The notes below the pieces were generated by a model. The model was not told where the DNA came from. It did not search any database and saw only the letters and a program-made list of their open reading frames with translations. Source: Cenococcum geophilum 1.58 (lineage: Eukaryota > Ascomycota > Dothideomycetes > Gloniales > Gloniaceae). Taken from it: DNA of 64,000 nucleotides. Position 1 is the stretch's first letter. Each line of letters starts with the position of its first letter. The DNA is taken from positions 1,550,001 to 1,614,000 of the forward strand of contig KV748188.1 of assembly GCA_001692895.1 (NCBI GenBank), in the 5' to 3' direction. Shown here piece by piece: positions 5,361-42,850 of the stretch. Both the position numbers and the translations under genes were made by a program.

Positions 5361-8097
5361 ATGGCAAAACTTACCTTACTGCTTGGTCTATTTCAGGTCA
5401 ACTTTATATATGGCTTGCCAACCCGCGATATGAAGCCGCAGTCGGCAATCCTAGACGCCAGAAGCGTGCCCATTTCTATTAGTCTGGCGGTCACTACAAG
5501 CTATAGTTCAGCTATAGTCTCTTCTGTGCAGTCCGCTTCTCTTACTATCGAGCCAAGCGTCACAGGCGTAAGTATATATGTTATTTATTATCCCTAATAC
5601 TGCTCGTCATATTTCTTGTTTGGTTTTATGTATTCTGATGCTCTTTCATATAGTCTGTTAATACCGCTCTTCCTTCCGGACACGATACTGGCCTTCCTTT
5701 TAACACGACCGATATTTCAACCCCCGTAGGAAGTTTAGCACCGGCCACCACTACTCTCAACCCAGGCCCTATACGTGCAACAGCGGCGACATCAGCAAAT
5801 GTTTTTGTTACAATCGCCACAGATGCTCCTCCAGCACAAATTCAAAGTCGATCTGACCACCCTGTGGCCCAACTGGGTATAACAAACCAAACTGGTCCAG
5901 TTGAGACCAACAAATTCTACGCAAACTTCTTTCTAGGCGGACAATCCAACGCTGCTTGGACACATCCATACTCTGTGAGCTGGTCGAAGGGAACTGGCAA
6001 CGCCCTGAGTTGGGGTTTAGCGGTTTCCCACATTGAAAGAAGCCAACTGGCATGGGCTTCAGGCGACCCCCCGGAATATTTTGTCAATCCCACCGGGCTG
6101 CAATCCATAATACTCTCTGCAGCAGAGCTTGGTAGTTCAACAACCCTCACCACCGATACTCTAGAGGCTTTCTCAGTCAATGTGAATTTGGCACCTTCTC
6201 GAGGGGCTGATCCCTTGATTTCGTTCTCCTTAGTCCAAGGAATGGGCTTTGTCACTGGCCTCTATAATGGAGCCACGCCATACGTGGAAAGCGGCATTTT
6301 CTTCCGTACCTTGACATACGTTGGGCAGGTTAACTACGTAACTTACAAGTATCGAATTGTGCTTGAAGATTCTACGAATTGGCTACTCTATGCTACTCCA
6401 ACTGGCAGTCTCGGCGCCCCACCGTTTACTCTCCAGAACAGTACTCTTATTGAAGGACCTGCGGACTTCCATGGGACCATACAGGTGGCCAAGAATCCTG
6501 CGAATACTAGTGGCGAGGCTTCCTATGATGCTTCTGCCGGGTCATACGCCGTGACCGCTACAATTAGTGGCTCAATTGACAATGGTTCCGGAAGCTACAC
6601 CCTGGCTTGGACGAAGGCCGGCATTCAAAACCAGACTTTGATCATGTTTGGTTTGTCTCACCATGTTGAATCCTTTGACAGCACCACATCTGGCGGTTTA
6701 ACTGATATTGAGCTGGAGACTACAACAAAGGGCATGGCAAAGGCCGTTGGGCGCGACCAATTTACAATGGTAGAAAGCAACCTCCCATCAGATATTGGTT
6801 TTGCACCTTGGATGCCAGGAATCAACGGTGCATCCGGATCTCAGGGCAATACTCTCCCGAGCGCTGCTATTAGTGCTATCAATAGCGCCGGAGCAGTCGA
6901 GTTGAATGAAGATATGAATGCTCAGACAAACTTGAACAGCATGTACTACAGTGGGAAGGTAAGCAAGCCTAAGCTATCGATATCAAAACAAACGACTAAC
7001 GTTCCAAGGCTCTGGCTAAGTTCGCGGGTATAATTTACACCGTCAACGATCTTGGGTCAAATTCAGCACTTGCAGCAGCAGGACTCACAAAATTAAAGGA
7101 TTCTTTCAACGTGTTCGTTAACAACACACAGCCTTATCCCCTCGTCTATGACGCTGTCTGGAAAGGCGCAGTCTCGTCCGGCACCTACATTGCTGGTGAT
7201 AGTGGTATTGATTTCGGCAACACTTACTATAACGATCACCACTTCCACTATAGCTACTTCGTCTGGGCTGCTGCTGTCATTGGATATCTTGATCCAACAT
7301 GGCTGACAGAGGGTACTAACAGAGCATGGGTGAATATGCTTGTTCGAGACTACGCCAACCCAAGTACCGAGGATCCCTACTTCCCGCTCTCGCGCTCCTT
7401 TGACTGGTATCACGGCCACTCCTGGGCTAAAGGCCTCTTCGAGTCTAGCGACGGCAAGGATGAGGAATCGTCTTCTGAAGACGCCTTCTCTTCCTATGCT
7501 ATCAAAATGTGGGGGAAAGTGACGGGCGACCCGAATATGGAAGCACGTGGTAACTTGCAGCTGGCGGTGCATGCACGAAGCTTGAAAAATTACTTCTTGC
7601 TGGAGAGCACGAATGCAGTGCAGCCTGCGAAGTTTAGTCCGAATAAGGTTACTGGAATTGTAAGCACCACTTTTCGGTCCCGCTCTTAAAGGAGCATCAC
7701 TGACTATTTCGCTAGCTCTTCGAGAATAAAGTAGATCATACGACTTACTTTGGTACAAACATGGAGTACATTCAAGGGTATGTCTATCTACCCTTTCGTC
7801 CCCTTGTATCGCTACTAAGATAACTCTAGAATTCACATGATTCCGTTGAACCCCAGTTCAGCGTACACACGTACCCCGAATTTTGTCAAAGAGGAATGGA
7901 ACATGCACTTCGCCAATGGTGTGGCTGACTCAGTCCAAGGTGGCTGGAAGGGCATCTTGTATGCTAACTTGGCCATCATTGATCCGGTAACTTCTTACAA
8001 CTTCTTTGCAGATGAGGATTTTAGTAGCTCGTTCTTGGATGGAGGAGCAAGCAGGACGTGGTATCTGGCTTATGCCGCGGGCTTGGGTGGAGTTTGA
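5361..8097 (+). CDS. Secreted endo-1,3-beta-glucanase, glycoside hydrolase family 81
   Basis: Five exons (5361-5567, 5654-6958, 7009-7659, 7716-7777, 7830-8097) give 830 residues. The first 20 or so residues (MAKLTLLLGLFQ...) form a signal peptide, followed by a Ser/Thr/Pro-rich linker and the GH81 beta-sandwich starting near VETNKFYANFFLGGQ. The catalytic half carries the family motifs DHHFHYSYFVWAAAVIG (Asp about 580) and FDWYHGHSWAKG followed by EESSSED (Glu about 657 and 661), which match the known acid/base and nucleophile region. Enzymes of this family cut internal beta-1,3-glucan bonds in the cell wall, as yeast Eng1/Eng2 do in septum breakdown. All key residues are present, so the gene looks functional. 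The start was chosen because it directly heads the signal peptide. Confidence 0.93.
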
Positions 8098-9318: not shown

Positions 9319-9953
9319 AGTGGAAGGATTTGATATGGGAGAGAATATAAATAATTTTGAGCGGGGAACTTTTTTTTGTGATGCCTGGAGGGGTGGGCCG
9401 TAGGGCTGAGCTTTAGCGTGCAACCTTTCCAAATTGAGACCTCTGGTTAGCCGCGATTCAGCCTCCTCGTTCACCTGGGCAACATTCACAGCCATTGTTC
9501 TTCAGCATTCACCCCCATGTAGCCTCCGACACACCTTTAAAACTGTAATATTAATACAACCAAAATGGCGGACAAGATGGCGAAGTACAGGACGGAGATC
9601 CAGCAGGTAAATAGAAGGGAAAGTTCATTACAGTATTCATTCTCTTTCTCCTCTCTCTACAGGGAAAGAACCCAACGGGGTAGCACCTATCATGGAGGAC
9701 CTCAAGAGGCTTTCACTAGCTGTGAAAATCTCCAACTCTCTAGCGAGGGGATGGGCCTTCTTCTCTGTATTTATGTTTTCTTGGCATGGATTTGCATCGT
9801 CCACCTTCATCCACAACGTCTGGTGTTATCTTAATCATACCCTTCAACTCTCAAAGGATTCAATTTCTGATATCCGTATCCATAATCTACCCATCATCGA
9901 CTTTTCGCTGTCCAACCCCACCGCCACAACACACCACAATTCCTACTCTTACC
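9319..9953. promoter_or_regulatory. Divergent DPH5/SPT3 intergenic region
   Basis: This interval of 635 bases lies between two head-to-head start codons and should hold both promoters. It contains a short plus-strand frame at 9565 (MADKMAKYRTEIQQ). With the GT-AG intron visible at 9607-9661 that frame stops after six more codons, so it looks more like an upstream ORF in the SPT3 leader than a separate gene. The region from 9800 to 9950 is pyrimidine-rich, common for fungal leaders. Confidence 0.5.
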
Positions 9954-10970
9954 ATGGCGCCCCCAGACCGTCTCCCCGATTTCTCCCACCCCAATTTCGA
10001 AAGCCAGAAAATTCAGGACGAACTGACGCTTGGTATTATGCAGATGATGTTCGTCTCTGGAGAGACTGGTGAACCGTCCGCCGAAACCACCACCTTGATC
10101 GAATCAATTGTGCAACAGCAAGTCCAAGAAATGCTCCGCGAATGCACGGCTCTAGCTACCCGGCGCGGCTCCCGCTCCATCTCCACCGATGATCTCATGA
10201 TGCTGATCAGGCACGACAAGGCCAAGATATCTCGCCTGCGGCACTTTCTGCAATGGAAAGACGTCCGGCGCTCCGTCAAAGACAACAGCGACGACAAAGG
10301 CGGCGATGCAGCAGCAGATATCGGCGCCGGCGACGCAGATCTCGCAACCGGGATTGTCGCTGGCGGCGGGCCAACTGTGGAAACGGGGAAGAAGGCCAAG
10401 CGTGCCAAAGTCGATCTGGTGTGGGATGTGCAGTCCTTTTTCAACGAGAATGTTCCTGCACGCGACGATGTTGAGGACGAGGAGGAAGAGGAAATGAACT
10501 ACGCCACTCTGCAGCGTCTTAAGAATGCCGACGAGCGCACGAAGAACATGACACGTGAAGAATATGTCCACTGGTCCGACTGTCGGCAGGCTTCGTTCAC
10601 GTTCCGCAAAGGCAAAAGATTTAAAGAATGGGCCGGATTTGGTATCATCACGGATAGCAAGCCGAACGACGACATCATTGATATTCTCGGATTCTTGACA
10701 TTCGAAATAGTACAGACGCTAACCGAAGAAGCGCTGAGGGTCAAGGATGCTGAGGATCTATACAAGAAAGAGACAGGAGGAGAGCCACAGAATCGCATGA
10801 AGCGGAAGAGGGAAAGTGGTCTGTTTGATCCGCCAGAGGAAGCTAGAGAGCCGGTACAGCCAAGCCATGTGCAAGAGGCATATAGGCGATTGCAGAGGAG
10901 CAACAATAAGAGCAGAGCTATGTTGAATTTTTCTCGGAATATTCATCGGAGTGCTTTGAAATTGGTATAA
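9954..10970 (+). CDS. SPT3: SAGA complex subunit Spt3
   Basis: A single exon of 338 residues. The N-terminal histone-fold half (about residues 20-105: [38 protein letters not shown]) belongs to the TFIID-18 kDa/TAF13-like group. A second histone-fold half lies at about residues 225-300 ([18 protein letters not shown] through the [10 protein letters not shown] helix). The two halves together imitate the TAF11-TAF13 pair. Between them is a Gly/Ala- and Asp/Glu-rich linker ([10 protein letters not shown]). Spt3 sits in the SAGA coactivator and helps deliver TATA-binding protein to promoters in the nucleus. The ATG at 9954 lies in ACCATGG, a good fungal start context, and directly heads the family's N-terminus. 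Confidence 0.95.
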
Positions 10971-13538: not shown

Positions 13539-16500
13539 TCACTGTAGCTTAAGGTCTTCTTCATTGAGTACTCCATATAGCTGCTCAATCTCTTGCCCTA
13601 CAAACGTAATATCCTGCGCTAGCTGACCGGTGACGAGCGCTGAAAATAGTTTGATTAGTACTAAAGTATGGTGGGGAAGGACGCGGAGTACCTACCATAT
13701 GCATACAAAAGCTCGTAGTCCTCATTGGTAGCAATGTCTCCTCCCGGATCAGTCTTTCGAAAATCGAAAATTTTAGCCAACAGCCGATCACGAGCGTTCT
13801 CAATATTGGGTAAGACATCATTCAATGGATATGCCATTTTCATGGAAGATGCAAGAACTGCTCACGGTTAACATGGTTCTTTTTATGTGTGAAACGTGGA
13901 AAAAAATCATTAAAAGCCACCCACCTGAAAGCAAATGACTAATCCGCCAACTTAGCTGCATCCACTCATGCCTTGTGTACTTCAAAATCTCCTTCTCACC
14001 TTCACTCGCTTTCAGATCTTTTAATATGACCACATTCATAGCGTGAAAGCTGTCGAGCATCCGTCCAGTCGCTTCCAAAATCCGCTTGAAAGATTTGTCT
14101 GGAAATGGACCCCGCAACTCGAATTCGGACGTTGCAGCACTTCTGAGAGTCTCCAGATGCATTAGGAAGCGTTGCAACTCGAGTTCCACACGCTGATCCA
14201 TGTACGAAACGGGCGGATCTGTGTCTTCGAGTAGTGTAGCTAGCGGCCCCCGTTTCCATATCAAGCCCATCCGTAACCATAAGATGCAGATACCGTCTCT
14301 CATCTTGCGCCTTGCCGATATCGGCCAAATGATGCGGGTGACAACAATGCCCCAGATACACCCTGCCATGACAGCTACGACGCGGTGGAGCACGATCTCC
14401 CAGATTTCAGGTGAGATGCCTCCCTCGTCATCATCATCGTCACTATCTTTGACAGAGAGCGAGTAAGCATAAAGTGCCGAGAGGTTGTATGTTAGGAGAA
14501 TAAACCGGCCCATTGGTCCTTTGCCTTTGCCAACAATGATGTAGAAACAGCCGAGGGAGACTACCCAGCCAAAGAAGCAGAGGACAAAAGGGTTGTCGTT
14601 AGATATGATCCAGGCAATGACGGCGCACAGAGCCCCAATGCAAGTGCCTAAAAACCGCTGGTAGCCGGTGGTGTTGGATGCACCGATAGTCATCGAACAG
14701 ACCAACATGTAAGATAATAAGCCCCATTCACCTCGCCAGTGGCTGTAGAGCGGCCTAGTAGCTGGAATGAATGACCAAACTGCATATGCTACAGCGCCTG
14801 CGCCAACCTTAAAGGCATATTTGGTATCATCTCTGCGGAAAAATCTTAAGGCGCGCCATAACCTGTATGTGTAAGGTTGACTATTTAGTGGCTTCCCAGG
14901 ATCACCAATTGAGTTGACTCGGCGCATTAGTCTAGGAATCTCATGAGATAGGCCTCGCTCGGCGCTCTCTTCGATCAAGCTGGATTGTTCTGAATGGGGT
15001 AAGCTAAAGAAAATTCAGGAGGATTGATTACCCGCCTACCAGAACCGTCTCTCTTGTTCCATTTCCCCCATCTACGCCAGAACAATAGCCACTTCCAAGT
15101 CCGTTTCCTTGGACTCCTATTAACGTCTCCCTTGAGTTCTTCTAGTATGTCTAGATAAGTAATCATGTCTTCCGCAAAGTCCTGGAGAGAAGAACTAAAA
15201 TAACCACAGCTAGCAGCCACTTCCTCGAAGTCCGCGGCTACTTCTAGAGAACCTGTTTTGGCTGGAAGCTTGTTTTTGTACACGAACCCGAGAGCTTCCT
15301 TCCTCGCAGTGGCAAACATGTCATTCGCTTCGAGAAGGCTACTCCTAAAATGGCTATTGACTATGATAAGATAATCAGGCCCAGGTCCAAATGGTAGCTC
15401 GTCCAGTACTTCTCTAAGGGTATACGCGAGAGATTTCTATATGAATTAGCTTGAACTTAGTATATACATGCTCAACTCGCTTACCATAGGAGGTCCTAGG
15501 TGTGCAATAAAAATTGAGAACATATCAGCAGCCGTCAGAGAAGATTGTATTCCGCTTGGTATGTTCCAGGACGCCCCAGCTTTCGTGCCCCGTTCGTCTC
15601 CAGATCCACTTGAATCTTTAGGCAGCTCATCAATGGAGGCCAGGATACTGGTTCTCCGTTCTGTATGGCTAAGGCTGGGTGATACCATAGGAGATGCGAA
15701 GAAATCCGAGAAGCTGGAAGAGTTTGTCAACGGCGCATTCTCCTCACCTCCAGACTTGGACATGAGAGTGAACTGTGTTTCAGCTGAGCTGCGTAATCCG
15801 CCTATGTTTTGTGTCAACCGTTCCATACATTTAACAAGCCTTGACTCGATCCTGTATTCTTCTTCGGTACCCAAAAAGTAATGTTCGTATTTTGCCTCTC
15901 CCAAATTCTTAATCAGTGATCTAAAGACGGATTTATACTGGAGCGATGCGGCAACAAACGCTGGATGCTTTAGTTCTTTCTCGGAGCCAGATAAGAAGCT
16001 TCTTGTAATAATTGTGAGCATCTCCCCTAAAGAATCCGTAGCTTTCCGCAGATCATCTCGGAGTTCCTTTCTTGCGGATATCGGTTTAACCAATAAACTC
16101 ACTGCGGTTGATGCTACGATGCCCATAATAACCATCCTCAACACCTGAGAAACCTTGTCGTATGAGAATGTGGCGGCCTGTACGGCTCCTTCTCTGGTCA
16201 GGACTGTGATTAGGGCCAGAGAAGCTAACGAGCAGGCCACATTGACGAGAGGGTTTCCGAGCCTTTGTTTCAACCATCCCACAAGCGCCAACCCACCACC
16301 ACAGAATATTACGAGGACCAACGCATGGCCTAGCACAAGTAGATCGTGATTACCAAAAAAGACTGAGACTGCCATGCTGGTAAACGAAAAGAAAGCAGCA
16401 TAGATGAAGGCCATGAGTGCCAACACAGTTGCTTCTGCCATGCTTCCAGCAGATCGCGCCGGGTGAAAGTACACCGTTATTGTAGCCACCGTGTGTTTTC

Positions 16501-17199: not shown

Positions 17200-18125
17200 G
17201 GTAGCGGTAGAGGGACACCCCCAATTGATATGCGGACACTCACCCTTGATTGAGTTTAGTTTCTCCCTAACCAAGTTAAAATATCACGTGAATTTGAGTT
17301 GTTTGCATTTGTATTGCAAAGCGACGTCGCGCGCCTATACCCAAAAAATTACCTCGCATTTGATCCTCTACTTCTTCGGGATCCTGCAGTTGTTGAACGC
17401 CGTCGCGGCCGCCCGGTAGGCTCTACAAATAGCAATTCGCGTTGACAGCTCTATTCGCCGAGAGCCATTAGTATTTGAGCAAAATACTGCGCGCGGTCGT
17501 GGGCGTGGGCATGGGAGCGGCTGTGCCCGCGGAGGCAGTTCTTAGGTGTCAAGCAGAGGTGGCAGCACCTAAATTAGTTTGCGCGGCGCCTCATAAGTTA
17601 TCTCTTAATCCAATTAATCGACTTGGGAGTAGGTAGGTGGTGCTATCCCTTGACACGTTGGCGTCCTCGTCTGGGCGCCAAGCCTAGGAACAACGTGCCT
17701 GTAAATAGCTAGTTATTTTCAACAATTCGATACCGCACAATGCCACATACACTTTCAAATGATATTGAATCGCTTTAGCTGGGTGTAGTCTCTGGCAAGG
17801 GCAGCCAATTCGGAGCCTCTGATTGGCTAAGCCCTTATCGATAGCTGAGGACGTAAATTAACGTGTCAAGGGATAGGTAGGGGAATGGTGGTGGGAGTTA
17901 AGATACTACTGCGGGTGCCCTGCTAGATGTCGGCGGTATATTTAATAGGCTTTTAAAGGCCTGGGAGCTTTGTCCTTTCACGAGGACTTCGCTGAGGATT
18001 CCTTTGGCGTATTCCAACTTTGATTTGAACTTTACTAGTTGTACTGTACAACTCAAATCCACGTGATATTCGAACTTGATCAGGAAGGAACTAAACTCAA
18101 TCAGGAGGGAGTGTGTTGATTATTT
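17200..18125. mobile_element. Decayed inverted-repeat DNA element, same family as 42109-42833
   Basis: The left part reads ACACCCCCAATTGATATGCG, then CTTGATTGAGTTTAGTTTC and AATATCACGTGAATTTGAG. The right part repeats this in reverse complement around 18040-18115 (CTCAAATCCACGTGATATTC and CTCAATCAGGAGGGAG). The middle shares GCAGAGGTGGCAGCACC and the CCAATTAATCGACTT block with the 725 bp element at 42109. No open reading frame or transposase is present. The ends are blurred and no target duplication was found, so the borders are approximate. A second element is inserted inside it. Confidence 0.55.
17646..17873. mobile_element. 228 bp MITE nested in the older element, TA flanks
   Basis: The ends are the perfect inverted repeat TCCCTTGACACGTT / AACGTGTCAAGGGA, and both sides are flanked by TA, as expected for Tc1/mariner-type insertion. 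The 228 bases inside have no coding capacity. Removing it brings together sequence of the surrounding decayed element, so it is a later insertion. Confidence 0.65.
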
Positions 18126-18609
18126 ACATACAAATTTGGGTAAGCGCACGGGCGTTCGGCATTTTCAATTTCCGGCCACGACTTAACGCACCAGCCCTTG
18201 GCCTATTAAAGATAAAGTAGCGCACAGACGTTTAGTAGAACTTTAACGGGCCTAAATTTTTATCCTGTCTAATCTTTAGTTGCGAGCTAATTTTTAAACA
18301 TTTTATAAGTTTTATTTTTTTCCAACTATTCAAAATAGCCTCTTTGGTGTAGTTGGTTATCACGTGGGTGAGTGGCCAGCAATCCTTAGTGGCCCCGATA
18401 TTAATAATGTTAGGTCTCATATGTAATATGATTTGGTCATCCAAAGTAATCCCAAGCTCGCCAGTGCAAATCTGGCAAGGGGCAGAAACTTCTTTTTGCG
18501 ATCTCATTCTTTTTTCCATATCTGATATCAGGTTCGCTGCTGCAGGCCGTGCGTATAACAACCAGGACGGCCATAATTTAACCTCACAGATAGAGAGAAT
18601 AGCAGACAA
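18126..18609. other. Flank of the element and leader of the interrupted gene
   Basis: AT-rich sequence without a recognisable gene. It separates the inverted-repeat element from the interrupted reading frame that starts at 18610. Confidence 0.3.
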
Positions 18610-20049
18610 ATGGACGAAATATCTCGAGAAAAGGAGGAATACTTTGTAGACGGTGTTCTGTGGAGCGACAATACTTCGTCTGACACGAAAACCGTTTTCA
18701 ACAGAATCACCTGTGGATCCGAACTAGACCTTGCACAAGCTTGCAGCCCAATTTCAATCGAATGCAGGGAACGTTTCCGACAACGATTACGACGCATAAT
18801 CTATCGCCTAAGCGATCTTGTCAAGGCGAATCCATTTTCGAAGGAAGCCGAGTCCATGAATGCACCGCTTTCAACGAATTTTTGGATTGTACTCAGCATG
18901 CTCGAAGTTAATAAAGTTTTTAATATTCTTTTATCATACTTCCCTAAGCAAGTCCAAGCAGCTTTAGGAAAGCCAGAGATTATAATCGATAGCCTACTAG
19001 CACTTCCCCGCCAATCAGATAACAACCTAGGCGGCTAGATTATATACATCGACATTATTACAGAGAGTATTATACTTAATAATAGTAAAGAGATAAGAGT
19101 AGGCCCTCAAACTTATGGACTGGGTCTATACGTCGGTTCTGCCACAGGCTAGGGAGGTAGAATTTAAAGGTGGTTAGAATATAATTGATATGTCCTCAAC
19201 AACCTTTCTAAAGACAATTATTCGAGAAAGGGCTATTATTACTGGTTTTGTACAAGACCTGCTCGCATAATAAACCTTTAAGCTGTTGCTATTGGATTCT
19301 GCCCTCTTAACTCTACATTCTAGCCAATCCTTACTAAAGGTATTATTATAGTCCTACTTAGTACTCTTAGTAATAAGGGTTAAAGAAAGCAGTTTACCCC
19401 GAAGGCAATATTTAATTAGTACGAAGAATATCGCAAAGCTATACCCAATGTGGGAAGATTCCCAGATATTAAACCTTTAAATCACTTATGGCCATTACAA
19501 CAAGGATTTTATAGACGCATTCCAAGGCCAACAAGCTATCCTTATTATGGCTTAATCCCGTTAAGAAAGGTAATCTAGCTAAGAATAGAGGCAAAATATG
19601 TCTGCCTAAGTTGTTGGGAGCAAAGTTCTAAAGGACAAAAGAAACGGTAAATAGCCAGAAATTCGGGACAAGTAAAATATGGAAGGCCAGCTTGCGACTG
19701 GAAATTTGGGCCGTATATTAATCTGGTTAAGAAAGAGCGTCTAGGGATAGCTCTAAAAAGCGGTATTAGTAATAGATGGCTCTACCAGCCGTGCTTTGGG
19801 ATGGCAATAAGGACTGCAGAAGCCCATAGAGTAGTATATGTTTAAGCAAATCGAGGGCCAACAGTAAAGGAGGCGGGTATCTTTTATTGTCAGAATCCAA
19901 AGTGTAAAAGACCGTTGGGGCGGAATAAAAAGAAGAACGAAAGACCGGCAGAAAGACCCCGGCCTGGAATTAGTGATTGCTGGCTCTGTATCAACTGTTT
20001 CCGCAAGAGACGCCGTGGTACTCTTAGTGTGCCAGCTCTCTCTACATAG
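18610..20049 (+). pseudogene. Stop-riddled gene: GIY-YIG-like segment and zinc-binding C-terminus
   Basis: One frame runs 480 codons from ATG 18610 to TAG 20047-20049 with no frameshift, but holds eleven internal stops: TAG at 19036, 19150, 19321, 19417 and 19576; TAA at 19165, 19279, 19381, 19648 and 19843; TGA at 19186. All can come from CAG, CAA or CGA by single C-to-T changes, the RIP signature. The first 142 codons are open and resemble nothing I know. After them comes LGLYVGSATG followed by GGRI and RWLEY, which resembles the YIG half of GIY-YIG endonucleases, then KYVCLSC and a tail with FYCQNPKC and CWLCINCFRKRRR that could bind zinc. The nuclease label is tentative. The continuity of the frame and the stop pattern are directly visible. 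Confidence 0.6.
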
Positions 20050-20102
20050 AGTTTCTATAGTTGGTTTCAACTATGATGTACTCTTATAATCGTCATTGTT
20101 GG

Positions 20103-20999
20103 TTATTTACCCAGTAATTCCGTGTGCCAGCAACACAGGTGCTGGTTGTAAAGGGGGCCCGACTTGTTTTGGAATCGGCGTTCTAGATCGTGTATAGAGA
20201 GGACAGGCGATGATGTATGTGGTAAGCGGCGCCGTGGTAGAGTAGTCGCTGGTGCTGGCGGGGAGGCTCTAGAAGCAGGTAGTGTAGTTGTTGGTACTGG
20301 CGGTGTGGAGGCTAGAGATCGACGAGGCCTCGGTGGTGGTGATGGTGATGTTAGGCAAGGGCGAGACGCAACGGTGGGGTATGAGGGACGGACAGGAGAA
20401 ACCAGGCGAGGAGAGGAGGGCGGTGGCTGGGTAGGTGTACCGGTTGAGGTAGGAGGGGGAGGAGTGGCAGCAGCGTATTCTGATGATGGGCGTTCTTGGA
20501 GCGGGCTCATGGAGGGTGGTGGTGACAATACCTCTGGGGTTCGAGAACGAGGGTGGCTAGTCGATGTGTAGATGTCAGAAACATTGTTGATCATATCGAA
20601 TATCGTATCTGCTAAGAGGCAATCCTCCTCGTGAGCGCTGAGGAGCTCATCGTTGCTCCATTCTCCTAAAGTGGCCATCCGTTGTATGCTCATTGCTTTA
20701 TGACAGACATGACAAAAGCAAGTGTCTTCCCCAGATTTCGTGGAGTAGGAAAAGTCGCATATCGCTAGCTGCTGTGGAGGTAGATCTGTACATGCCCATG
20801 TTGACGGATAGTTTTCTAGACGTCTTGCGAGGTTTCGATACGATGCAGAGGTGTTAGACGGTGGTCGTGACGCGCATCGCGATCGTTGGGACGCGTCAGA
20901 ACGCGACGGTGAGTTGCTTCGGCTTGCTGCTGGTGATGACCTAGGCGATGATAGCGATGATGGCGATGCGAAACGGTTTAATGCTGCCGTTGCTGCCAT
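20103..20999 (-). CDS. Pro/Ser-rich protein with a BIR-like Cys/His motif
   Basis: An intact single exon of 298 residues in normal GC content between two RIP-damaged stretches. The N-terminal 60 residues are Ser/Arg-rich. Residues of about 58-130 contain RRLENYPSTWACTDLPPQQL, then CFCHVCHK, a Trp-x2-Asp and an H-x3-C (ending AHEEDC), which resembles a BIR zinc fold in order of residues but not in exact spacing (the last Cys is too close to the His). The remainder is a long Pro/Ser/Thr-rich tail with no fold. BIR proteins of fungi act in chromosome segregation, but this protein is too short for a Bir1 homologue. No function is claimed. Confidence 0.5.
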   Translation of the reverse strand: MAATAALNRFASPSSLSSPRSSPAASRSNSPSRSDASQRSRCASRPPSNTSASYRNLARRLENYPSTWACTDLPPQQLAICDFSYSTKSGEDTCFCHVCHKAMSIQRMATLGEWSNDELLSAHEEDCLLADTIFDMINNVSDIYTSTSHPRSRTPEVLSPPPSMSPLQERPSSEYAAATPPPPTSTGTPTQPPPSSPRLVSPVRPSYPTVASRPCLTSPSPPPRPRRSLASTPPVPTTTLPASRASPPAPATTLPRRRLPHTSSPVLSIHDLERRFQNKSGPLYNQHLCCWHTELLGK

Positions 21000-24100: not shown

Positions 24101-24168
24101 ATTGGCTTAAGAGGCTTATATATACGAAAAGTGTAAGAAATCTTTACCATACAAAGGGATAGCTATGT
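21120..24168. mobile_element. RIP-degraded repeat, unidentified
   Basis: The sequence is strongly AT-biased, rich in TAG/TAA and poor in CA/TG, like the neighbouring LINE copies, but it is not another copy of them. The longest open stretch is on the minus strand at 23403-23729, with a Lys/Glu/Leu-rich product (EDIKEEELGAVFKARGKTT) and tripled-residue bias. The same frame appears to continue on both sides with mainly TAG and TAA stops. I could not recognise a transposase, integrase or reverse transcriptase motif, so the class of element is left open. Confidence 0.45.
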
Positions 24169-27100
24169 ACTATCTAGGGTATAGGCCGTTATAGAGCGCT
24201 AACTAAATACTTCCTGCCATTAATATGCTTGCTCTAGTTTAGAAGCCAACTATAAGAACTATATATCTATTACCTAACACTATACTTAACTAAGGAGAAA
24301 ATAAAAGAAAGTAATATATTACTATTAAAGAAAGTTAGAGTTTAGAGGCGAGCCTAAGTAAGTAGTTTTTGATGCCTTATATCCGTAGGGCTATTCTAGC
24401 GTTATGCGCTTCTTAATTAGCAACGCACTAGTAGAGGCATATATAGAGGAGGCTTATAGTATATTCGGTTAGATAATTAGAGGAGGAATTCTTAAAAGTC
24501 TTTACTTATTAATATCGGCTTTTATACTCTTTATATCTTATATACTTAGGTATAAACGTCTAGTCTCCTTTATAAATTTAATTATAGCTTTAACTACGCT
24601 AATATCTAGCTTCTAGCGCTTAATTAGGCCGTTAATATTCCTGCCTCCTTTTTATCTATATAAGTAGCCTTCTAATATATATAATAGATCCCCAAATCGA
24701 TCTCTATATTACTCTCTTAGTTTAATCCTCTACTACACCTACCTCCTATAAGAGAAGAGGAAGTGCTATATTAACTCTATAAGCCTATAGTTGCATAACG
24801 CCGTCTCTAATGTATTAATTTTATAGAGATATTCCTTTAAAAATGACTTGCCGGTCCGTAGCTGCGTAAGGATAGTAGCTTTTAAGCTAATTAGCTGCTG
24901 GTATAATCCTATAGCCTTTTTAAGGTAAAGTACTACGTTAATCTTCCTTATAAACTTGCCTATATTAGATCTTCCTAATAGAAGCGGTCCTATTATTATC
25001 TTAGCTCTTTTTAACGCTTACGTTATAAGGTACTATAGGAGGCCGTCTTTTTATAGTAGCTCCTCGCTCTCTAGTCTTATTGCTACTTTAGTAAGCTTAT
25101 TAGCCTTCTTATTTTCTATAAATCCTAAGTAGCCTAGAATCTAGTATAGTGTGATATTATTTAGCTAAAGCTTCTTTAAGATCTCTGCGATTATTTCCTG
25201 GTAAGCTCTAGCCCTTTAGCTCTATACTAACAGCAACGCTAATTATAAGTTAGAGAATATTCTTATACTAAATATAGGTATTAGAAAACCTACTTAGTTA
25301 ACAGCTGTGCACGTAGGGTCCTATAGCTAGTTAGCTGCCTTGCTAATTACTAGAAGCTCTATAAGATAGGCGTTGGCCTAATTAGAGCTTACTACCGTTT
25401 TTAAAAGCGTTGCTTTAGATAGCGTAGCATATATACTAACTCCTGCCCTACTATTACGCACTAATATATTAACGTATATATTAACCTACCCTAGCTTATA
25501 GTCTTTAATAATAGCTTAAGTATAATATTCGTCCTTATATATTACTATATTAGGCTTAGCTACCTATAGCGGGTATATATATAGTTTAACCTCCAGCACC
25601 CTATTTACCTAGATATCCTCATATATCTCTACTATCCTTTAAAGTAGCGATTAGTATTATCTATAGAGCCTCTGTCTTTAAATTATCTAATAAGGATATA
25701 ATTTACCTAGTTTATGGATTAATACCTAAAACGCGATAGCCTAGTTACGTAGCCTTTACTTAAGAGGAAGTAAGCTAGCTTCTACTTCCGCTATTAGTAG
25801 GGTAATAGAGCGGAACCCCCTAATAATAGCTTATGCTATAATCCTCTGCGCCTACTAGAGGAGCTATATTAACTCTTATATCGCAAGCGGGTACTATATT
25901 AGCGATGTATAGTTTACTATTAGTAAAACTAAGCTCTTAGCTAGCTGCTTAATGCTCTTAGACTATAGTCCCTTTAATCTACGCAACGCTAGCGCTACCT
26001 TAGTAGCTTTGCCTACCTTATCCGCTAAGTGCGCCTTAAACTATAGCTCCTTATTAAGGATTACCCTAAGGATTTTAACTTCCTAAGTTAGGGGGATCCC
26101 TTTTCCTTTAAATTAGAGCGGCGTAGTAGCATCTCTACCTGCTTCTTTATATCTAGTAAGGTAGATAAATAACATTTTCTTTACTTTAAATTAGGCTCTA
26201 TTAGTTCTCTCCCATTTCTTAAGCATTAGTATAATCTCGCCCTAGATAATCTACGTGTTTTCCTCCGCTATAAGGCCTATAACCTATACTAAGTAGTTAT
26301 TAACAAAGGCCATAAAGCTGCTATTTTTAGGTACGCTTTATATAAGATCCGCGTTAAAGAATAGAAAGAGTATTAGGGCTAGTGCTAATCCCTNCGGGAG
26401 ACCCGCTTATAGGAGCGCCTATACCTCTAATATATATCTATTAACTAGGATATAAGCTTAACGGTTTATATAAAAGTCCTATACCTATTATATAATTATC
26501 TAAGGTATATAATATTACTATAATCTCCTAATTTCCAGCTCTATAGCCACATTATTATACGCACCCTTAATATTAAATAATACTAGAGATAGCGTCTTCT
26601 TTCCTTTTTATACTCTAAATACGTCCTTATAGAGATATAATAGCGTATATATTATTAACCTTTACTTCCTAACTCTAAAGTGCGTCTTAAGTAATAGGCT
26701 ATGTTCCTCTACTAGGTATACTATCCTCTCTACTACTAGTAATTTAAGTGCTTTTCCTAGCGTTAGGAGGAGGGAGATCGGCCTATAGTTATTTACTACC
26801 GTATAGTCCCCCTACTTTAGCTTCTATAGTAGTATAATCTTTACTACCTTCTATTTCTAGGGTACCTTTCCTATCTTAAGTAATTTAGTAAAGAGAGTAG
26901 TAATCTTACCACTTAGTACGGGCTATAGCTCTCGCTATACCTTAGCTAATAGGCCGTCCCTTCTAGGAGCCTTATTTAGGCTAGCCCTAAATATAGTTAC
27001 CTTAACCTTATATTTAGCGATAGGCTCCTATAGTAATTAGTTATAGCTAGTTATAACTTCCTCCTTTTATTTATACGGCGGTAGGACCGGAAAGAATACT

Positions 27101-29850
27101 TAGAGTAGTTCTCTTATAATATTATAGTTCTCTGTAATAACTTCTCCCTATCCTTTATCCTTCTTAATTAGCGGTATTTTAGTAAACGCGGATATAGCCT
27201 ATAGATTAAGGTATTTTAACGCTTTTTATATATTATTACTGTTACTAAGGAATTTATCCTAATAGAGCTTCCTATATCGCCGAATAGTCCTATAAAAGAG
27301 CTTCTTCGCTCTTACTGTGATATTACGTAGCTTAGGGTCATCCCTTCCTTATCTCTATATTGCGCTATTCCTATTCCTCTAGTATATATATAACTTCCTT
27401 AGCGTTATAAGGTCTTTATTCCACTATCTTTTTATATATAGTAATAGTCTGGCCCGTTAGCAGTATACTTTAAAGGCTTTATTAACCTACCTATTAAGGT
27501 AGTTAACTATTTTATCTATATTTTCTATAGGGAATCCTATTTCTTTCTATTGCTTTATATCTTCTTATATCTTATCCTAGTTTATATTTTTAATAAGCAG
27601 CCTCTCCTAGCTCTCCTATATGTTTATATTAACTTAAAAGCTAGTATAAATAGCTCTATAGTCTAATCCGTACTTATACTCTTAAATAGCGTACTTTACT
27701 AGTTTACTTACTAGGCCTAGGGTTATAAGTATAAGGTTAATTGTTAATATTTGCCCCGCGTTACTTTTAAATATAGGTATTCCTACTAAAAGTAGGCTCT
27801 AGAGTAACCGGTCCGCTATAAAGTTAATAATTAGCGTACTTTCTTTCTACGTTAATATAGTACTAATATAACTTCCTCCCTATAGTGGATTATACCGATT
27901 AAAGTTACCTATAATTACTACCTCGGTATATAGGTTGCGTAATAGTTTACCCTAGATTAGCCTATTAATTATCTCTAGTCTACTAAAAAGCTCCTCTAGG
28001 TTCTCTTCCTTAGTTCTCCTTAAATATCTATCTAGAATATATACCGATATAATTATAAGTCTCCTTTAGCTAATGTGCGCTACTACTACCGTAATATCTG
28101 CTAAATCTACCTATAGCTATATAGCTGCTAGCTCTTTAAATGCCTAGATATATAACCTAACTAAGGGATACCACTGCTACTTACCTATTGGGATGAACCT
28201 TATCCACCAGGGATTTAAGCTAGCTAGCACTACTTCCCTATTTAAGAGAAAGTAGTAAGGCTCCTGGCCTAAAATAAAGTAGAAGTCCGCTAGCGCTTCG
28301 TCATTATATAGCGCATACTACGCCTCCCTATACTTCTTTATATTCGCCTAGAGAATCTAAAGTTCTCTATTTATAGCGCTGTTATATAAGAATCCTATCT
28401 ATCTCTTTCCTATATACTAGGCATTTACGGTATAAGGCTTAATAAGGACCCTAGTAGTTTACGTAGTATAGATTTACCATCTTATACTAGAGATGGCCTT
28501 CCCACCTATATATTTCGCACGTATTAGGTTATATATAGTCTCTAGCTTTATATCTAAACCTTTTACATTTATAGCATACTATAGGGGTGCATTACTTCTT
28601 AAATAGTAATATAATAATTGCGCCTCCCCTAAATAATATATTATCTAATATAAGCAGCTTCTCTATATCCTCCTTTATTACTACTTTAATAATTATTAAT
28701 ACGTACTAGCCGCGCGGCCTTAGTTGTCCTAGCTATCTTATTATATATACCTCTACCTTATTCTCTACCCTAAAGCGCTCTATAGCTAACTTACTTACTT
28801 TTCCGCTATTAATATTTATTACTAAAGGTACTTTAACCTAGTCCGCCTTAACTATATACTACTTAGGTCTAATAAGCCTCGCCCTAGGGATATATAGTTT
28901 AAGCTATTAAGTAGTCGTCTACCTAAATATAGCTTCTTTATCTTTTTTTACCAAGAATCTAATAATGCCTATGCTATCGCTTATTCGCTATACGCGGAAG
29001 TCCTTAAGTATAGCTCCCGTAAGCCCCTTAACATCCTTTATACCTTACGCAATAGTTTACTTTACTACTTTAGTAGTAGCTACCCTCTTTATTACCTCTA
29101 AACCCACTTAACTAATATCTATTACTAGCTGCTAATTAGGTTCCTTAGGGTTCCTAGCGCTTATTATTTATAGTAAGGTTATCTCTAACCCTACCATACC
29201 TTTACTAGCCGCTACTAATACCTATAATTGTGTTAGAGCTAAGGGAGTGTTTAGTTACGCTTATAAGGACTAAATAGCCTTTTAAAGTTTAGCGTTTTAC
29301 TTTTTAAGGCTTTGCTATTCTAATTTAATGTCTATAAGGTTATTTCTAATACTCTTAATAATGCTATTCTGGTTTATAATAATATTGCTCTACTATACTA
29401 TAGTTTTTTTAAGGCTTTTAATAAGTTAATAAAATTTGTTATAATTAATACCTCCTCCTTTATATTTAGGTAAGGTAAAGACTCTTACTATAGGGAATAG
29501 AGGTAGTATATACTGTATAGCTTATAGTCTAGTTTATAGTGCGGTTATCTACTATTTAAACTATATTAATATTTGGGCTCGTGTCCTTAGCGACTACTAG
29601 GCCTCTTATACCTTCGCGCTTAGTTTCTTTATACGTCTTAGTGAAGCTACTAGTAGGTCTAGAGGTAGTGTTACTAATACGCGTTTAGGGGTTAAAGCAG
29701 CTATTAGGGCTCTAGGGCTTCATTTAGTAGGCCGTAGGGGCCGCCTTATAGCGGGAACTAGCTAAACAAAAGACTAGGATTCGATTAAAAAAATATCCAA
29801 GATAAATATCCTCCTCTTTCCGCGTCCGTTAAATTTTCATTAGTAAGTAC
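24169..29850 (-). mobile_element. RIP-degraded LINE (Tad1-like), copy A
   Basis: Read on the minus strand the copy has, from 5' to 3': a zinc knuckle of ORF1 (CYKCKRFRYKARD near 28,560), a reverse transcriptase with GLPxGLALALILFLFFNADL followed by FVNNY (26,290-26,420), and an RNase H-like block ITLYxILGYLGFIENKKANKL (near 25,130). These parts and their order match non-LTR elements of the fungal Tad1/I group. The catalytic FVDDY is changed to FVNNY, and tens of stops of TAG/TAA type break every frame, so no protein can be made. Both aspartate changes are C-to-T on the plus strand in a CA context, which is typical of RIP. The 3' end is at the low coordinate and its exact limit is uncertain. 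Confidence 0.8.
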
Positions 29851-32800
29851 GTATATATATTCTATTATAGCCATATACTATCTAGGGTATAGGCCGTTAT
29901 AGAGCGCTAACTAAATACTTCCTACTATTAATATACTTGCTCTAGTTTAGAAGCTAACTATAAGAACTATATATCTATTACCTAACACTATACTTAACTA
30001 AAGAAAAATAAAGAAAAGTAATATATTACTATTAAAGAAAGTTAGAGTTTAAAGGCGAGCCTAAGTAAGTAGTTTTCGATGCCTCGTATCCGTAGGGCTA
30101 TTCTAGCGTTATACGCTTCTTAATTGGTAATATACTAGTAGAGGCACGTATAGAGGAGGCTTGCGGTATATTTGGTTAGATAATTAGAGGAGGAATTCTT
30201 AAGAGTCTTTACTTATTAATATCGGCTTTTATACTTTTTATATCTTATATACTTAGGTATAAACGTCCGGTCTCCTTTACAAATTTAATTATAGCTTTAA
30301 CTACGCTAATGTCTAGCTTCCAGCGCTTAATTGGGCTGTTAATATTCCTACCTCCTTTTTATCTGCGTAAGTAGCCTCCTAATGCATATAATAGATCCCT
30401 AAATTAATCTCTATATTACTCTCTTAGTTTAATCCTTTACTACGCCCACCTCCTATAAGAGAAGAGGAAGTGCTATATTAACTCTATAAGCCTATAGTTA
30501 TATAATGCCGTCTCTAATACATTAATTTTATGGAGATATTCCTTTAGAAATAACTTGCCAGTTTATAGCTATATAAGGATAGTAGCTTCTAAGCTAATTA
30601 GCTGCTAGTATAATCCTACAGCCTTTCTAAGGTAGAGTACTGTATTAATCTTCCTTATAAACTTACCTGTATTAAATCTTCCCAATAAAAGCGGTCCTAT
30701 TATTATCTTAGCTTTTTTTAACGCTTGCGTTATAAGGTACTATAAGAGGCCGTCTTTCTATAGTGGCTCCTTGCTCTCTAGTCTTGTTGCTACTTTAGTA
30801 AGCTTATTAGCCTTCTTATTTCCTATAAATCCTAAGTGGCCTAAAATCTAGTATAGCGTAATATTATTTAGCTAAAGCTTCTTTAAGATCTCTATAACTA
30901 TTTCCTAGTAGGCTCTAGTCCTCTAGCTTTATACTAATAGCAACGCTAATTATAAGTTAGAGAATATTCTTATACTAAATATAGGTATTAGAAAACCTAC
31001 TTAGTTAACAGCCGTATACGTAGGGTCCTATAGCTAGTTAGCTGCCTTACTAATTACTAGAAGCTCTATAAGGTAGGCGTTGGCCTAATTAGAGCTTACC
31101 ACCATTTTTAAAAGCGTTGCTTTAGATAGCGTAGCATACACACTAACTTCTGCCCTACTATTATATACTAATATATTAACGTATATATTAACCTACCCTA
31201 GCTTATAGTCTTTAATAATAGCTTAAGTATAATCTTCGTCCTTATATATTACTATATTAGGCTTAGCTACCTACGGCGGGCATATATACGGTTTAACCTC
31301 CAGCACCCTATTTACCTAGATATCCTTATATATCTCTACTGTCCTCTAAAGCGGCGATTAGTGCTATTTATAGAGCCTCTATCTTTAAATTATTTAATAA
31401 GGATATAATTTACCTAGTTTATGGATTAATACCTAGAACGCGATAGCCTAGTTATATAGCCTTTGCTTAAGAGGGAGTAAGCTAGCTTCTACTTTCGCTA
31501 TTAGTAGGGCGATAGAGCGGAACCCCCTAATAATAGCTTATGCTATAATCCTCTATACCTACTAGAGGAGCTATATTAACTCTTATATTATAAGCGGGTA
31601 CTATATTAGCGACGTATAGTCTACTACTAGTAGAACTAAGCTCTTAGCTAGCTGCTTAATACTCTTAAACTATAGTCCCTTTAATCTACACAACGCTAGC
31701 GCCACCTTAGTGGCTTTACCTACTTTATCCGCTAGGTGCGCCTTAAACCATAGCTCCTTATTAAGGATTACCCTAAGGATTTTAACTTCCTAAGTTGGGG
31801 GGATCCCTTTTCCTTTAAATTGGAGTGGCGTAGTAGCATCCTTACCTACTTCTTTATATCTAGTAAGGTAAATAAATAACGTTTTCTTTGCTTTAAATTA
31901 GGCTCTACTAGTCCTCTCCTATTTCTTAAGTATTAGTATAATTTTACCCTAGATAATCTGCGTATTTTCCTTCGCTATAAGGCCTATAACCTATACTAAG
32001 TAGTTATTAACAAAGGCTATAAAGCTGCTATTTTTAGGTACGCTTTATATAAGATCCGCGTTAAAGAATAGAAAGAGTATTAGGGCTAGTGCTAATCCCT
32101 ACGGGAGACCCGCTTATAGGAGCGCCTATACCTCTAATATATATCNATTAACTAGGATATANGCTTAACNGTTTATATAAAAGTCCTANACCTATTATAT
32201 AATCGTCTGAGGTATCTATTACTACCATAATCTCCTAATTTCTGGCTCTATAGCTATATTATTATACGCACCCTTAATATTAAATAATACTAGAGATAGC
32301 GTTTTTTTTTCTTTTTACGCTCTAAATACGTCCTTATAGAGATATAATAGCGTATATATTATTAACCTTTGCTTTTTAGCTCTAAAGTGCGTCTTAGGTA
32401 GTAGGCTATATTCCTCTACTAGGTATACTATCCTCTCCACTACTAGCAATTTAAGTGCTTTTCCCAGCGTTAGAAGGAGGGAGATTGGCCTATAGTTATT
32501 TACTACTATATAGTCCCCCTACTTTAGCTTTTACAGCGGTATAATCTTTACTACTTTTTATTCTTAGGGTACCTTTCCTATCTTAAGTAATTTAGTAAAA
32601 AGAGTAATAATCTTACTACTTAGTACGGGCTATAGCTCTTGCTATACCCTAGCTAATAGGCCGTCCCTTCTAGGAGCCTTATTTAGGCTAGCCCTAAATA
32701 TAGCTGCCTTAACCTTATATTTGGCGATAGGCTCCTATAGTAATTAGTTATAGCTAGTTATAGCTTCCTCCTTTTATTTATATAGTGGTAGGACTAAAAA

Positions 32801-35579
32801 AAATACCTGGAGTAGTTCTCTTATAATATTATAGTTCTCTATAATAACTTCTCCCTATCTTCTATCCTTCTTAATTAGCGGTATTCTAGTAAACGCGGAT
32901 ATAGCTTACGGATTAAGGTATTTCAACACTTTCTATATATTATTACTATTATTAAGGAATTTGTCCTAATAGAGCTTTCTATATCGCCAAACAGTCCTAT
33001 AAAAGAGCTTCTTCGCTCTTACTATAATATTACGTAGTTTAGGGTTGTCCCTTCCTTACCTCCGCATTGCGCTATTTCTATTCCTTTAGTATATATATAA
33101 CTTCCTCAGCGTTATAAGGTCTTCGTTCCACCATCTTTTTATATATAGTAATGGTCTAGCCTATTAGCAGTATACTTTAAGGGCTTTATTAACCTACCTA
33201 TTAAGGCAGTTAACTATTTCGTCTATATCTTCTATAGGGAATCCCATCTCTTTTTATTACTCTACGTCTTTTTATATCTTATTTTAGTTTATATTTTTAA
33301 TAAGCAGCCTTTCCTAGCTCTTCTACGTGTTTATATTAACCTAGAAGCTAGTATAGATAGCTCTATAGTCTAATCTGTACTTATACTCCTAAATAGCGCA
33401 CTTTATTAATTTACTTACTAGGCCCAGGGTTATAAGCATAAGGTCGATTATTAATATTTGCCCCACGTTGCTTTTAAACGTAGGTATTCCTACTAAAAGT
33501 AGGCTCTAGAGTAACTGGTCCGCTATAAAGTTAATAATTAGTGTACTTTCTTTCTATGTTAATATAGTACTAATATAACTTCCTCCCTATAGCAAATTAT
33601 GCCGATTAAAGTTACCTGTAATTACTACCTTAGTATATAGGTCGCGTAATAGTTCACCCTAGATTAGCCTATTAATTATCTCCAGTCTACTAAAGAGCTC
33701 CTCTAAGTTCTCTTCTCTAGTTTTTTTTAAATATCTGTTTAGAATATATACTAACACAATTATAAGTCTCCTTTAGCTAATATACACTACTACCGCTATA
33801 ATGTCTGCTAAATCTACCTATAGCTATATAGCTGCTAGCTCTTTAGATGCCTAGATATATAACCTAACTAGGGGATACTACTACTACCTACCTATTAGGA
33901 CGAACCTTATCTACTAGGGATTTAAGCTAGCTAGCACTACTTCCCTATCTAAGAGAAAGTAGTAAGGCTTCTAGCCTAGAATAAAGTGGAAGTCTACTAG
34001 CGCTTTATTATTATATAGCGTATACTACGTCTCCCTATACTTCTTTATATTCGCCTAAAGGATCTAAAGTTCTCTATTTATAGCGCTNTTATATAAGAAT
34101 CCTATCTATCTCTTTCCTATATACTAGGTATTTACAGTATAAGGCTTAGTAAGGACCCTAGCAGTTTACGTAGTATAGATTTACCGTCTTATACCAGAGA
34201 TAGCCTTCCCGCCTATATATTTTGTACGTATTAGGTCGCGTGTAGTCTCTAGCCCTATATCTAAACCTTTTATATTTATAGCATGCTATAGGGGTATATT
34301 GCTCCTTAAATGGTAATATAATAATTACGCCTCCTCTAAATAATACGTTGTCTAACGTAAGCAGCTTCTCTATATTCTCCTTTATTACTACTTTAATAAT
34401 TACTAACGCGTGCTAGCTGCGCGGCCTTAGTTGTCCCAGCTATCTTATTATATATACCTCTACACCATTCTCTACCCTAAAGCGCTCTATAGCTGACTTA
34501 CTTACTTTTCTACTATTAATATCTATTACTAAAGGTACTTTAACCTAGTCCGCCTTAATTATATACCACTTAGGTCCGATAAGCCTTGCCCTAAGAATAT
34601 GCGGTTTAAGCTATTAAGTAGTTATCTACCTAAATATAGCTTCTTTATCTTTTTCTACTAAGAATCTAATAATGCTTACGCTGTTGCTTATTCGCTATAC
34701 GCGGAAGTCCTTAAGTATAGCTCCCGTAAGCCCCTTAATATCCTTTATACCTTATATAATAGTTTACTTTACTACTTTAGTAGTAGCTACCCTCTCTATT
34801 ACCTCCTTATATATTTAGCTAACGTCTATTATTAGCTACTAATTAGGTTCCTTAGGGTTCTTAGCGCTTATTATTTATAGTAAGGTTATCTCTAACCCTG
34901 CTATACCTCTATTGGCCGCTACTAATGCCTATAATTATATTAGAGCTAAGGGAGTGTTTAGTTACGCTTATAAGGACCAGATAGCCTTTTAAAGTTTAGC
35001 GTTTTGCTTTTTAAGGCTTTACTATTCCAATTTAATATCTATAAGGTTATTTCTAATGCTCTTAATAATGCTATTCTAGTTTATAATAATGTTGCTCTGC
35101 TATACTATAGTTTCTTTAAGGCTTTTAATAAGTTGATAAAATTCGTTATAATTAATACCTTCTCCTTTACGTTTAGGTAAGGTAAAGACTCTTACTATAG
35201 GGAATAGAGGTAGTATATACTATATAGCTTATAGTCCGGTTTATAGTGCGGTTGTCTACTATTTAAACTATACTAATATTTGGGCTCGTGTCCTTAGCAA
35301 CTACTAGGCCTCTTGCACCTTCGCGCTTGGTTTCTTTATACGTCTTAGTAAAGCTACTAGCGGGTCTAGAGGTAGTGTTGCTAATACGCGTTTAGGGGTT
35401 AAAGCAGCCATCAGGGCTCTAGGGCTTCGTTTAGTGGGCCGTAGGGGCCGCCTTATAGCGGGAACTAGCTAAATAAAAGACTAGGATTTGATTAAAAGAA
35501 TATCTAAGATAAATATCCTCCTTTTTTAAAAGTTCTGTTTCTTTTATAGACCCTTAACAAGGGTATTGTTAGTAAGTAC
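29851..35579 (-). mobile_element. RIP-degraded LINE (Tad1-like), copy B
   Basis: This is the same element in the same direction as copy A, 5,729 bases long, with most differences being C/T or G/A. It starts at the low coordinate with a TA-rich 3' tail (GTATATATATTCTATTATAG) joined directly to the AGTAC that ends copy A. The reverse transcriptase block lies near 32,000-32,130 and again has the changed FVNNY motif. The 5' side ends in a damaged version of the 62-bp repeat seen intact at 41264. Several undetermined bases (n) lie between 32,145 and 32,190 and at 34,088. Confidence 0.8.
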
Positions 35580-35605
35580 ATATATATATATATATATATG
35601 TATAT
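35578..35605. repeat. (AT)n tract at the LINE junction
   Basis: A pure TA repeat of about 22 bases forms the 3' tail of copy C where it meets copy B. Copy B has a shorter TA tract at the matching place (29851-29860). Short simple-sequence tails are common at LINE 3' ends. Confidence 0.7.
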
Positions 35606-38600
35606 TCTATTATAGCCATATACTATTTAGGGTATAGGCCATTACAAAGCGCTAACTAAATACTTCCTGCTATTAATATGCTTGCTCTAGTTTAGAAGCC
35701 AACTATAAAAACTATATATTTATTACCTAATACTATACTTAACTAAGGAATAAATAAAGGAAAGTAATATATTACTATTAAAGAAAGTTAGAGTTTAGAG
35801 GTGAGCCTAAGTAAGTAGTTTTTAATGCCTTGTGTCCGCAGGGCTATTCCAGCGTTATATGCTTCTTAATTGGCGACGCACTAGTAGAGGCACGTATAGA
35901 GGAGGCTTGCGGTATATTCGGTTAGATAATTAAAGGAAGAATTCTTAAGAGTCTTTGCTTATTAATATTGGCTTTTATACTCTCTATATTTTATACACTT
36001 AGGTATAAACATCTAGTCTCCTTTATAAATTTAATTATAGCTTTAACTACGCTAATATCTAGCTTCCAGCGCTTAATTAGGCCGTTAATATTCCTACCTC
36101 CTTTTTATCTGCGTAAGTAGCCTCCTAATATATATAATAGATCCCCAAATCAATCTCCATATTACTCTCTTAGTTTAATCCTTTACTACGCCCACCTCCT
36201 ATAAGAGAAAAGGAAGTGCTATATTAACTTTATAAGCCTATAGTTGTATAACGCCGTCTCTAATATATTAATTTTATGGAGATATTCCTTTAGAAATAAC
36301 TTACTGGTCTATAGCTATATAAGGATAGCAGCTTCTAAGCTAATTAGCTGCTAGTATAATCCTATAGCCTTTCTAAGGTAGAGTGCTGCGTTAATCTTCC
36401 TTATAAACTTACCCGTATTAGATCTTCCTAATAGAAGCGGTTTTATTATTATCTTAGCTTTTTTTAATACTTGCGTTATAAGGTACTATAGGAGGCCATC
36501 TCTCTATAGTAGCTCCTTGCTCTCTAGTCTTATTGCTACTTTAGTAAGCTTATTAGCCTTTTTATTTCCTATAAATCCTAAGTAGCCTAGAATCCAGTAT
36601 AGCGTGACATTATTTAGCTAAAGCTTCTTTAAAATCTCTATAACTATTTCCTAGTAGGCTCTAGCCCTCTAGCTCTATACTAACAGTAACGCTAATTACA
36701 AGTTGGAGAATATTCTTATACTAGATGTAGGTATTAGAAAACCTGCTTAGTTAATAGCTATACACGTAGGGTCTCACGGCCAGTTAGCTACCTCGCTAAT
36801 TGCTAAAAGCTCTATAAGGTGGGCGTTAGCCTAATTAAAGCTCGCCACCGTTTTTAAAAGCGTTACTTTAGATAGCGTAGCATATATACTAACTCCTACC
36901 CTACTATTACGCACTAATATATTAACGTATATATTAACCTACCCTAGCTTATAGTCTTTAATAATAGCTTAAGTATAATCTTTATCCTTATATATTACCA
37001 TATTAGGCTTAGCTACCTACGGCGGGCATATATATAATTTAACCTCTAGCACCCTATTTACCTAGACATCCTTATATATCTCTACTATCCTCTAAAGCGG
37101 CGATTAGTGCCGTCTATAGAGCCTCTATCTTTAAATTATCTAATAAGGATATAATTTGCCTAGTTTATAGATTAATACCTAAAACGTAATAGCCTGGTTA
37201 TATAGCCTTTACTTAAGAGGGAGTAAGCCGGCTTTTACTTCCGCTATTAATAGGGCAATAGAGCGGAACCCCCTAATAATAGCTTATGCCGTAATCCTCT
37301 ACGCCTATTAGAGGAGCTATATTAACTTTTATATCGCAAGCGGGTACTATATTAGCGACGTGTAGTCTACTACTAGTAGAACTAAGCTCTTAGCTAGCTG
37401 CTTAACGCTCTTAAACTACAGTCCCTTTAATCTACATAACGCTAGCGCCACCTTAGTGGCTTTACCTACTTTATCTACTAGGTGCGCCTTAAACCATAGC
37501 TCCTTATTAAGGATCACCCTAAGGATTTTAACTTCCTAAGTTAGGGGGATCCCTTTTCCTTTAAATTAGAGCGGCGTAGTAGTATCCCTACCTGCTTCTT
37601 TATATCTAGTAAGGTAGATAAATAACGTTTTCTTTACTTTAAATTAGGCTTTACTAGTCCTCTCCTATTTCTTAAGTATTAGTATAATCTCGCCCTAAAT
37701 AATCTGCGTATTTTCCTCCACTATAGGGCCTATAACCTATACCAAGTAGTTATTAATAAAGGCTATAGAGCTGCTATTTCTAGGTGCGCTTTATATAAGA
37801 TCCGCGTTAAAGAATAGAAAGAGTATTAGGGCTAGTACTAATCCCTATAGGAGACCTACCTATAGGAGCGCCTATACCTCTAATATATATCTATTAACTA
37901 GGATATAGGCTTAACGGTTTATATAAAAGTCCTATACCTATTATATAATCGTCTAAGGTATTTAATACTGCCGTAATCTTCTAATTTCCGGCTTTATAGC
38001 CATATTATTATACGCACCCTTAATATTAAATAATACTAGAGACAGCGTCTTCTTTTTTTTTTATACTCTAAATACGTCCTTATAGAGATATAATAGCGTA
38101 TATATTATTAACCTTTACTTCCTAGCTCCAAAGTACGTCTTAGGTAGTAGGCTATATTCCTCTACTAGGTATACTATCCTCTTCACCACTAGCAATTTAA
38201 GTGCTTTTCCTAGTATTAGGAGAAGGGAGATTGGCCTATAGTTATTTGCTACTATATAGTCCCCCCACTTTAACTTCTATAGCGGTATAATCTTTACTAC
38301 TTTCTATTTCTAGGGTACCTTTCCTATCTTAAGTAATTTAGTAAAGAGAGTGGTAATCTTACCACTTAGTACAGGCTATAGCTCTTGCTATACCCTAGCT
38401 AGTAGGCCGTCCCTTCTAGAAGCCTTATCTAGGCTAGCCCTAAACATAGCTACCTTAACCTTATATTTAGCGATGGGCTCCTATAGCAATTAGTTATAGC
38501 TAGTTATAGCTTCCTCCTCTTATTTATATGGCGGTAGGACCAGAAAGAATACTTAGAGTAGTTCTCTTGCAATATTATAGTTCTCCATAATAACTTCTCC

Positions 38601-42841: not shown

Positions 42842-42850
42842 AGGCCCGAC

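Follow-up and report, generated by a model that had tools for sequence, protein, structure and literature searches.

A probable RIP-inactivated relic of a two-copy gene in Cenococcum geophilum 1.58

Introduction

How does a reading frame of 480 codons come to hold eleven internal stop codons and yet no frameshift, and what did it once encode? The question is raised by a stretch of 64,000 nucleotides from the fungus Cenococcum geophilum 1.58 (contig KV748188.1, positions 1,550,001 to 1,614,000), the whole of which is called the window here and in which the degenerate frame occupies positions 18610..20049 of the forward strand. A preliminary description read the frame as a clean fossil of repeat-induced point mutation (RIP), of a gene whose protein joined a GIY-YIG-like stretch to a zinc-binding tail. 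For this species the genome is listed at 177.57 Mb and RIP-like mutation as "Probably" (PMC5445492). Here we compare the frame with a second copy elsewhere in the assembly. We put at about 0.85 the probability that it is the RIP-inactivated relic of a two-copy gene, an ordinary occurrence in a fungus with RIP.

Results

A former coding frame present in two copies

As first described, the frame runs from ATG 18610 to TAG 20047 in a single phase without a frameshift, and its internal stops comprise five TAG, five TAA and one TGA (at 19036, 19150, 19165, 19186, 19279, 19321, 19381, 19417, 19576, 19648 and 19843). Counting the last stop, it contains 12, compared with 30 and 35 in the other forward frames and 24, 24 and 36 in the reverse frames. 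Among 1000 dinucleotide-preserving shuffles the best of the six frames had a mean of 25 stops and a minimum of 15, and 12 or fewer were reached in 0/1000, which rules out chance as the origin of the frame. Because its 12 stops stand against 24-36 in the other five frames and no shuffle reached so few, 18610-20049 is a former coding frame.

The assembly (177,193,698 bases in 162 contigs) was searched by blastn and with DNA queries, and a second copy was found on contig C62, 86-88% identical by blastn. The unit common to both copies spans 18493..20074 of the window (forward strand); after a gap, about 30 further bases match near 20102-20131, and the flanks beyond have no homology to C62. When the whole frame, or either of two parts of it, was used as a DNA query, C62 was the one other copy found. 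Protein searches were made with four stop-free pieces (142, 67, 37 and 52 residues), out of eleven internal and tail pieces of more than 3 residues, the longest of the other seven being 19651-19842; they matched the frame itself and the C62 copy and nowhere else at E values up to 10. All copy counts are lower bounds, and no intact relative of the gene was found in these DNA and protein-piece searches of the genome. ATG 18610 sits inside a 21-nucleotide stretch absent from the C62 copy, so the original start codon is uncertain.

The C62 copy carries a 1-base deletion inside the frame and is interrupted by 5578 bases. A 15-base sequence is repeated at the junctions and AAT repeats lie nearby; in this the interruption resembles an insertion of the long interspersed nuclear element (LINE) type, which it may be.

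Two dispersed copies with sharp edges, flanked by sequence without homology beyond the short stretch and set, in the window, in a neighbourhood rich in repeats, might also represent the coding region of a transposable element not recognised as such, each copy being an insertion that RIP struck afterwards. However, just two copies were found (a lower bound), no target duplication was seen beyond a 6-base word common near the ends of the unit, no terminal repeats were noticed, and neither Pfam nor NCBIfam returned a transposase or reverse transcriptase family. We consider such an element improbable.

Transitions at CpA sites separate the copies

Over 1554 aligned columns the copies differ at 186, of which 89 are A/G, 80 are C/T and 17 are transversions, giving 169 transitions. 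RIP is known to prefer CpA. When C/T differences were counted on both strands, setting aside as ambiguous those sites followed by different bases in the two copies, they affected 77/151 CpA sites but only 22/96 CpG, 20/133 CpC and 17/208 CpT sites (CpA versus other C sites, Fisher P ~3e-19). The locus therefore presents what is looked for in RIP of duplicates: at least two similar copies, each longer than a few hundred bases, with differences that are mainly C/T (G/A) transitions biased to CpA. At the differing CpA sites T is found 53 times in C62 and 24 times in the window, indicating that the C62 copy is the more damaged.

This comparison supports the proposed RIP damage in a single frame, although the damage is not uniform along it. 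The original argument, that a single C-to-T reversal would undo each of the eleven stops, is empty; every stop codon begins with T, so the same would be true of any stop. The evidence for RIP is thus drawn from the C62 copy and not from the reversibility of stops.

The 169 in-frame differences are spread evenly over the three codon positions (58, 58 and 53), and hence no selection is seen since the copies parted.

A spared first third and the stops common to both copies

In each copy the damage is concentrated in the 3' two thirds. Within 19012..20074 (forward strand) C/T differences affect 64/100 CpA sites compared with 39/283 other C sites, and the TpA/ApT and RIP substrate indices are 1.34 and 0.96 for 19012-19850 and 1.40 and 0.88 for 19851-20074. 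Within 18493-19011 neither copy has an in-frame stop, the excess at CpA is small (13/51 versus 20/154 other C sites, P 0.047), and the indices are 0.74 and 1.26. The first 142 codons, which end at the first stop (18610..19038, forward strand), are stop-free to 19011 in both copies and their RIP signal is weak.

Several observations weigh against a relic inactivated by RIP. The index check proposed in the preliminary description gave, for the whole frame, only mild values (TpA/ApT 1.17, substrate index 1.01). Although duplicated like the rest, the unit's opening 519 bases carry a slight RIP signal in both copies, a pattern not expected had RIP struck the unit as a whole. The proportion of transversions is higher in 18493-19011 than in the remainder (10/497 versus 7/1057 columns, P 0.03), a hint that the two parts of the unit may differ in history, in a comparison of small numbers whose boundary at 19011 was picked after the stops had been seen. 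Finally, no intact relative was found that would reveal the identity of the former gene. Patchy RIP is the simplest account of the spared first third. The contrast between spared and damaged parts, alike in both copies, could help in studying where RIP starts and stops.

At the eleven stop positions of the window, C62 has the identical stop at seven, a different stop at two and a sense codon at two, and it holds 13 additional stops of its own. That 9/11 positions are stops in both copies could suggest a gene that is still alive, with its stops lying in introns or read as amino acids. However, within the damaged part a similar number of common stops, 8.1, is predicted by independent damage (P 0.36). 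Recoding and introns were both rejected on the even codon positions and on the 13 further stops, 1-base deletion and ~5.6-kb insertion of C62, making a live gene exceedingly improbable; judged by its sequence, neither copy now has the look of a functional gene.

The same stops bear on whether the gene was damaged before it was duplicated, the common stops being inherited and RIP adding more. Over the whole frame, with gapped codons set aside, 9 shared stops against 6.2 expected under independent damage (P 0.047) would favour this order, yet the excess is gone within the damaged part, where those 9 compare with the 8.1 given above. We regard prior damage as unlikely, and favour a two-copy gene inactivated by RIP after its duplication.

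What the frame may have encoded

Two motifs underlie the proposed protein. The piece at 19039..19149 (forward strand) begins with IIY and ends with LYVGSATG (19126-19149), a GIY-YIG-like stretch by motif; a cysteine cluster, C-x4-C-x24-C-x2-C-x2-C at 19888..19998 (forward strand), is by motif a possible zinc site. The loose GIY-YIG order (IIY...LYVG...R) also occurs in 1.9% of shuffles, the strict form being absent from the frame, and the cysteine pattern occurs in 1.5%; both rates overstate the case, because the patterns were written after the sequence was seen.

Profile searches gave the GIY-YIG assignment no support. In Pfam, searched to E 10, neither the frame as a whole nor any of four pieces had a match, whether to a GIY-YIG domain, a zinc domain or any other family. 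The read-through frame had no match in NCBIfam, nor did the middle piece (131 residues) in the PDB. The damage to the sequence reduces the sensitivity of searches for GIY-YIG and SLX1 domains. Against two of the genome's own GIY-YIG-like proteins, profile-profile comparison gave a probability of 0.1 on a scale of 100. A profile built from eight such proteins of the same genome does align with the frame at its YVG stretch, though at -0.3 bits (E 0.041), a score that 80/2000 shuffles reach. By eye, no clear candidate for a downstream catalytic glutamate was seen in the frame, itself damaged. A single-sequence AlphaFold2 model had a mean predicted local distance difference test (pLDDT) score of 29.6 and no usable fold. 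GIY_YIG_2 (PF20815) had no match anywhere in the genome. A DNA pattern written for the YVGSATG stretch matched nowhere but in the window. In a search for viral contigs, 39 stretches fitted a pattern and none was confirmed. The part of the literature covered by the matches listed contained no description of the relic's protein that we noticed.

Nor do the results refute the GIY-YIG reading, as the searches of this genome turned up no intact homologue. As for the tail, the cysteine pattern is present as described, and zinc binding would follow only from its form; we presume a likeness to fungal GATA-like fingers, one that Pfam does not support. Taken together, these results leave the encoded protein an orphan. 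It may have been a GIY-YIG-type nuclease ending in a zinc-binding tail, though we doubt it. Distinctly less probable still is an undescribed fungal family combining an N-terminal helical region, a divergent GIY-YIG core and a zinc tail of GATA-like form, in which a small selfish or genome-defence nuclease was copied once, killed by RIP in both copies and left its last trace in the genome here. The protein itself would matter only if intact homologues revealed a new nuclease architecture.

A separate observation concerns contig C1, where positions 173729-173878 and their flanks hold bacterial-looking frames, named by eye as MazG-like and as GIY-YIG plus helicase-like; they may represent contamination or an associated bacterium.

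The surrounding window

Three direct tandem units of ~5.7 kb, ~91% alike, occupy 24159-41280 of the window; their GC content is ~0.34 and their RIP-type indices are strong, and RIP therefore seems active in this genome. Rfam at gathering thresholds had no match in the window, this tandem block included. An open frame of 298 amino acids (20103-20999, reverse strand) has the relic on one side and the AT-rich block on the other; it is rich in proline and serine, holds a cysteine/histidine cluster and had no significant match in Pfam. Two inverted-repeat structures with mutually related arms, resembling miniature inverted-repeat transposable elements, are located at 17236-18114 and 42100-42842. 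Ordinary neighbours recognised by Pfam are a glycosyl hydrolase family 81 gene (5864-7033, forward strand), a TFIID 18-kDa subunit (9786-10970, forward strand) and a FUSC_2 membrane protein (13818-14978, reverse strand).

Discussion

From what was observed directly (two copies with a common segment, the transition and CpA bias, the even codon positions and an insertion between 15-base repeats) we infer RIP as the agent and a probable order of events. A fungal protein-coding gene of ~1.6 kb would have been copied to a second genomic place. In each copy RIP would then have turned C to T over the 3' two thirds, on either strand and mostly at CpA, creating stops, and the C62 copy would additionally have been split by the insertion of ~5.6 kb.

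Eight places in this genome, that of the query included, belong to a fungal GIY-YIG-like family (L018-L025). The relic resembles them in having a YVG stretch whose context is similar and, by eye, a later "LN..PL.Q" stretch; it differs in the low score of the family profile described above and in its cysteine tail, no similar tail being noticed by eye in those of their frames that were inspected. Two of the eight, scanned alone with Pfam, fall just under the GIY-YIG cut-off, and in two of the eight the match is interrupted by a stop. A ninth match falls on a different part of the query, and no frame there showed the motifs sought.

The order of a GIY-YIG domain followed by a C-terminal zinc domain (RING/PHD-like) is the architecture of SLX1, which the preliminary description overlooked in not knowing the pairing from a described family. 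The relic would share this order if the weak motif readings hold. It differs from SLX1 in having no Pfam match to either domain and in its long extra N-terminal part, and the genome has a separate SLX1-like gene on contig C10, with GIY-YIG recognised by Pfam and a cysteine-rich second part seen by eye.

Degradation of endogenous gene repeats by RIP is the subject of Hane and Oliver 2010 (PMC3017866). That work deals with a larger repeat class in a different species, whereas here two copies were found. The present locus offers a clear two-copy case of RIP on a seemingly ordinary gene, as opposed to a known transposon, in a 177-Mb genome.
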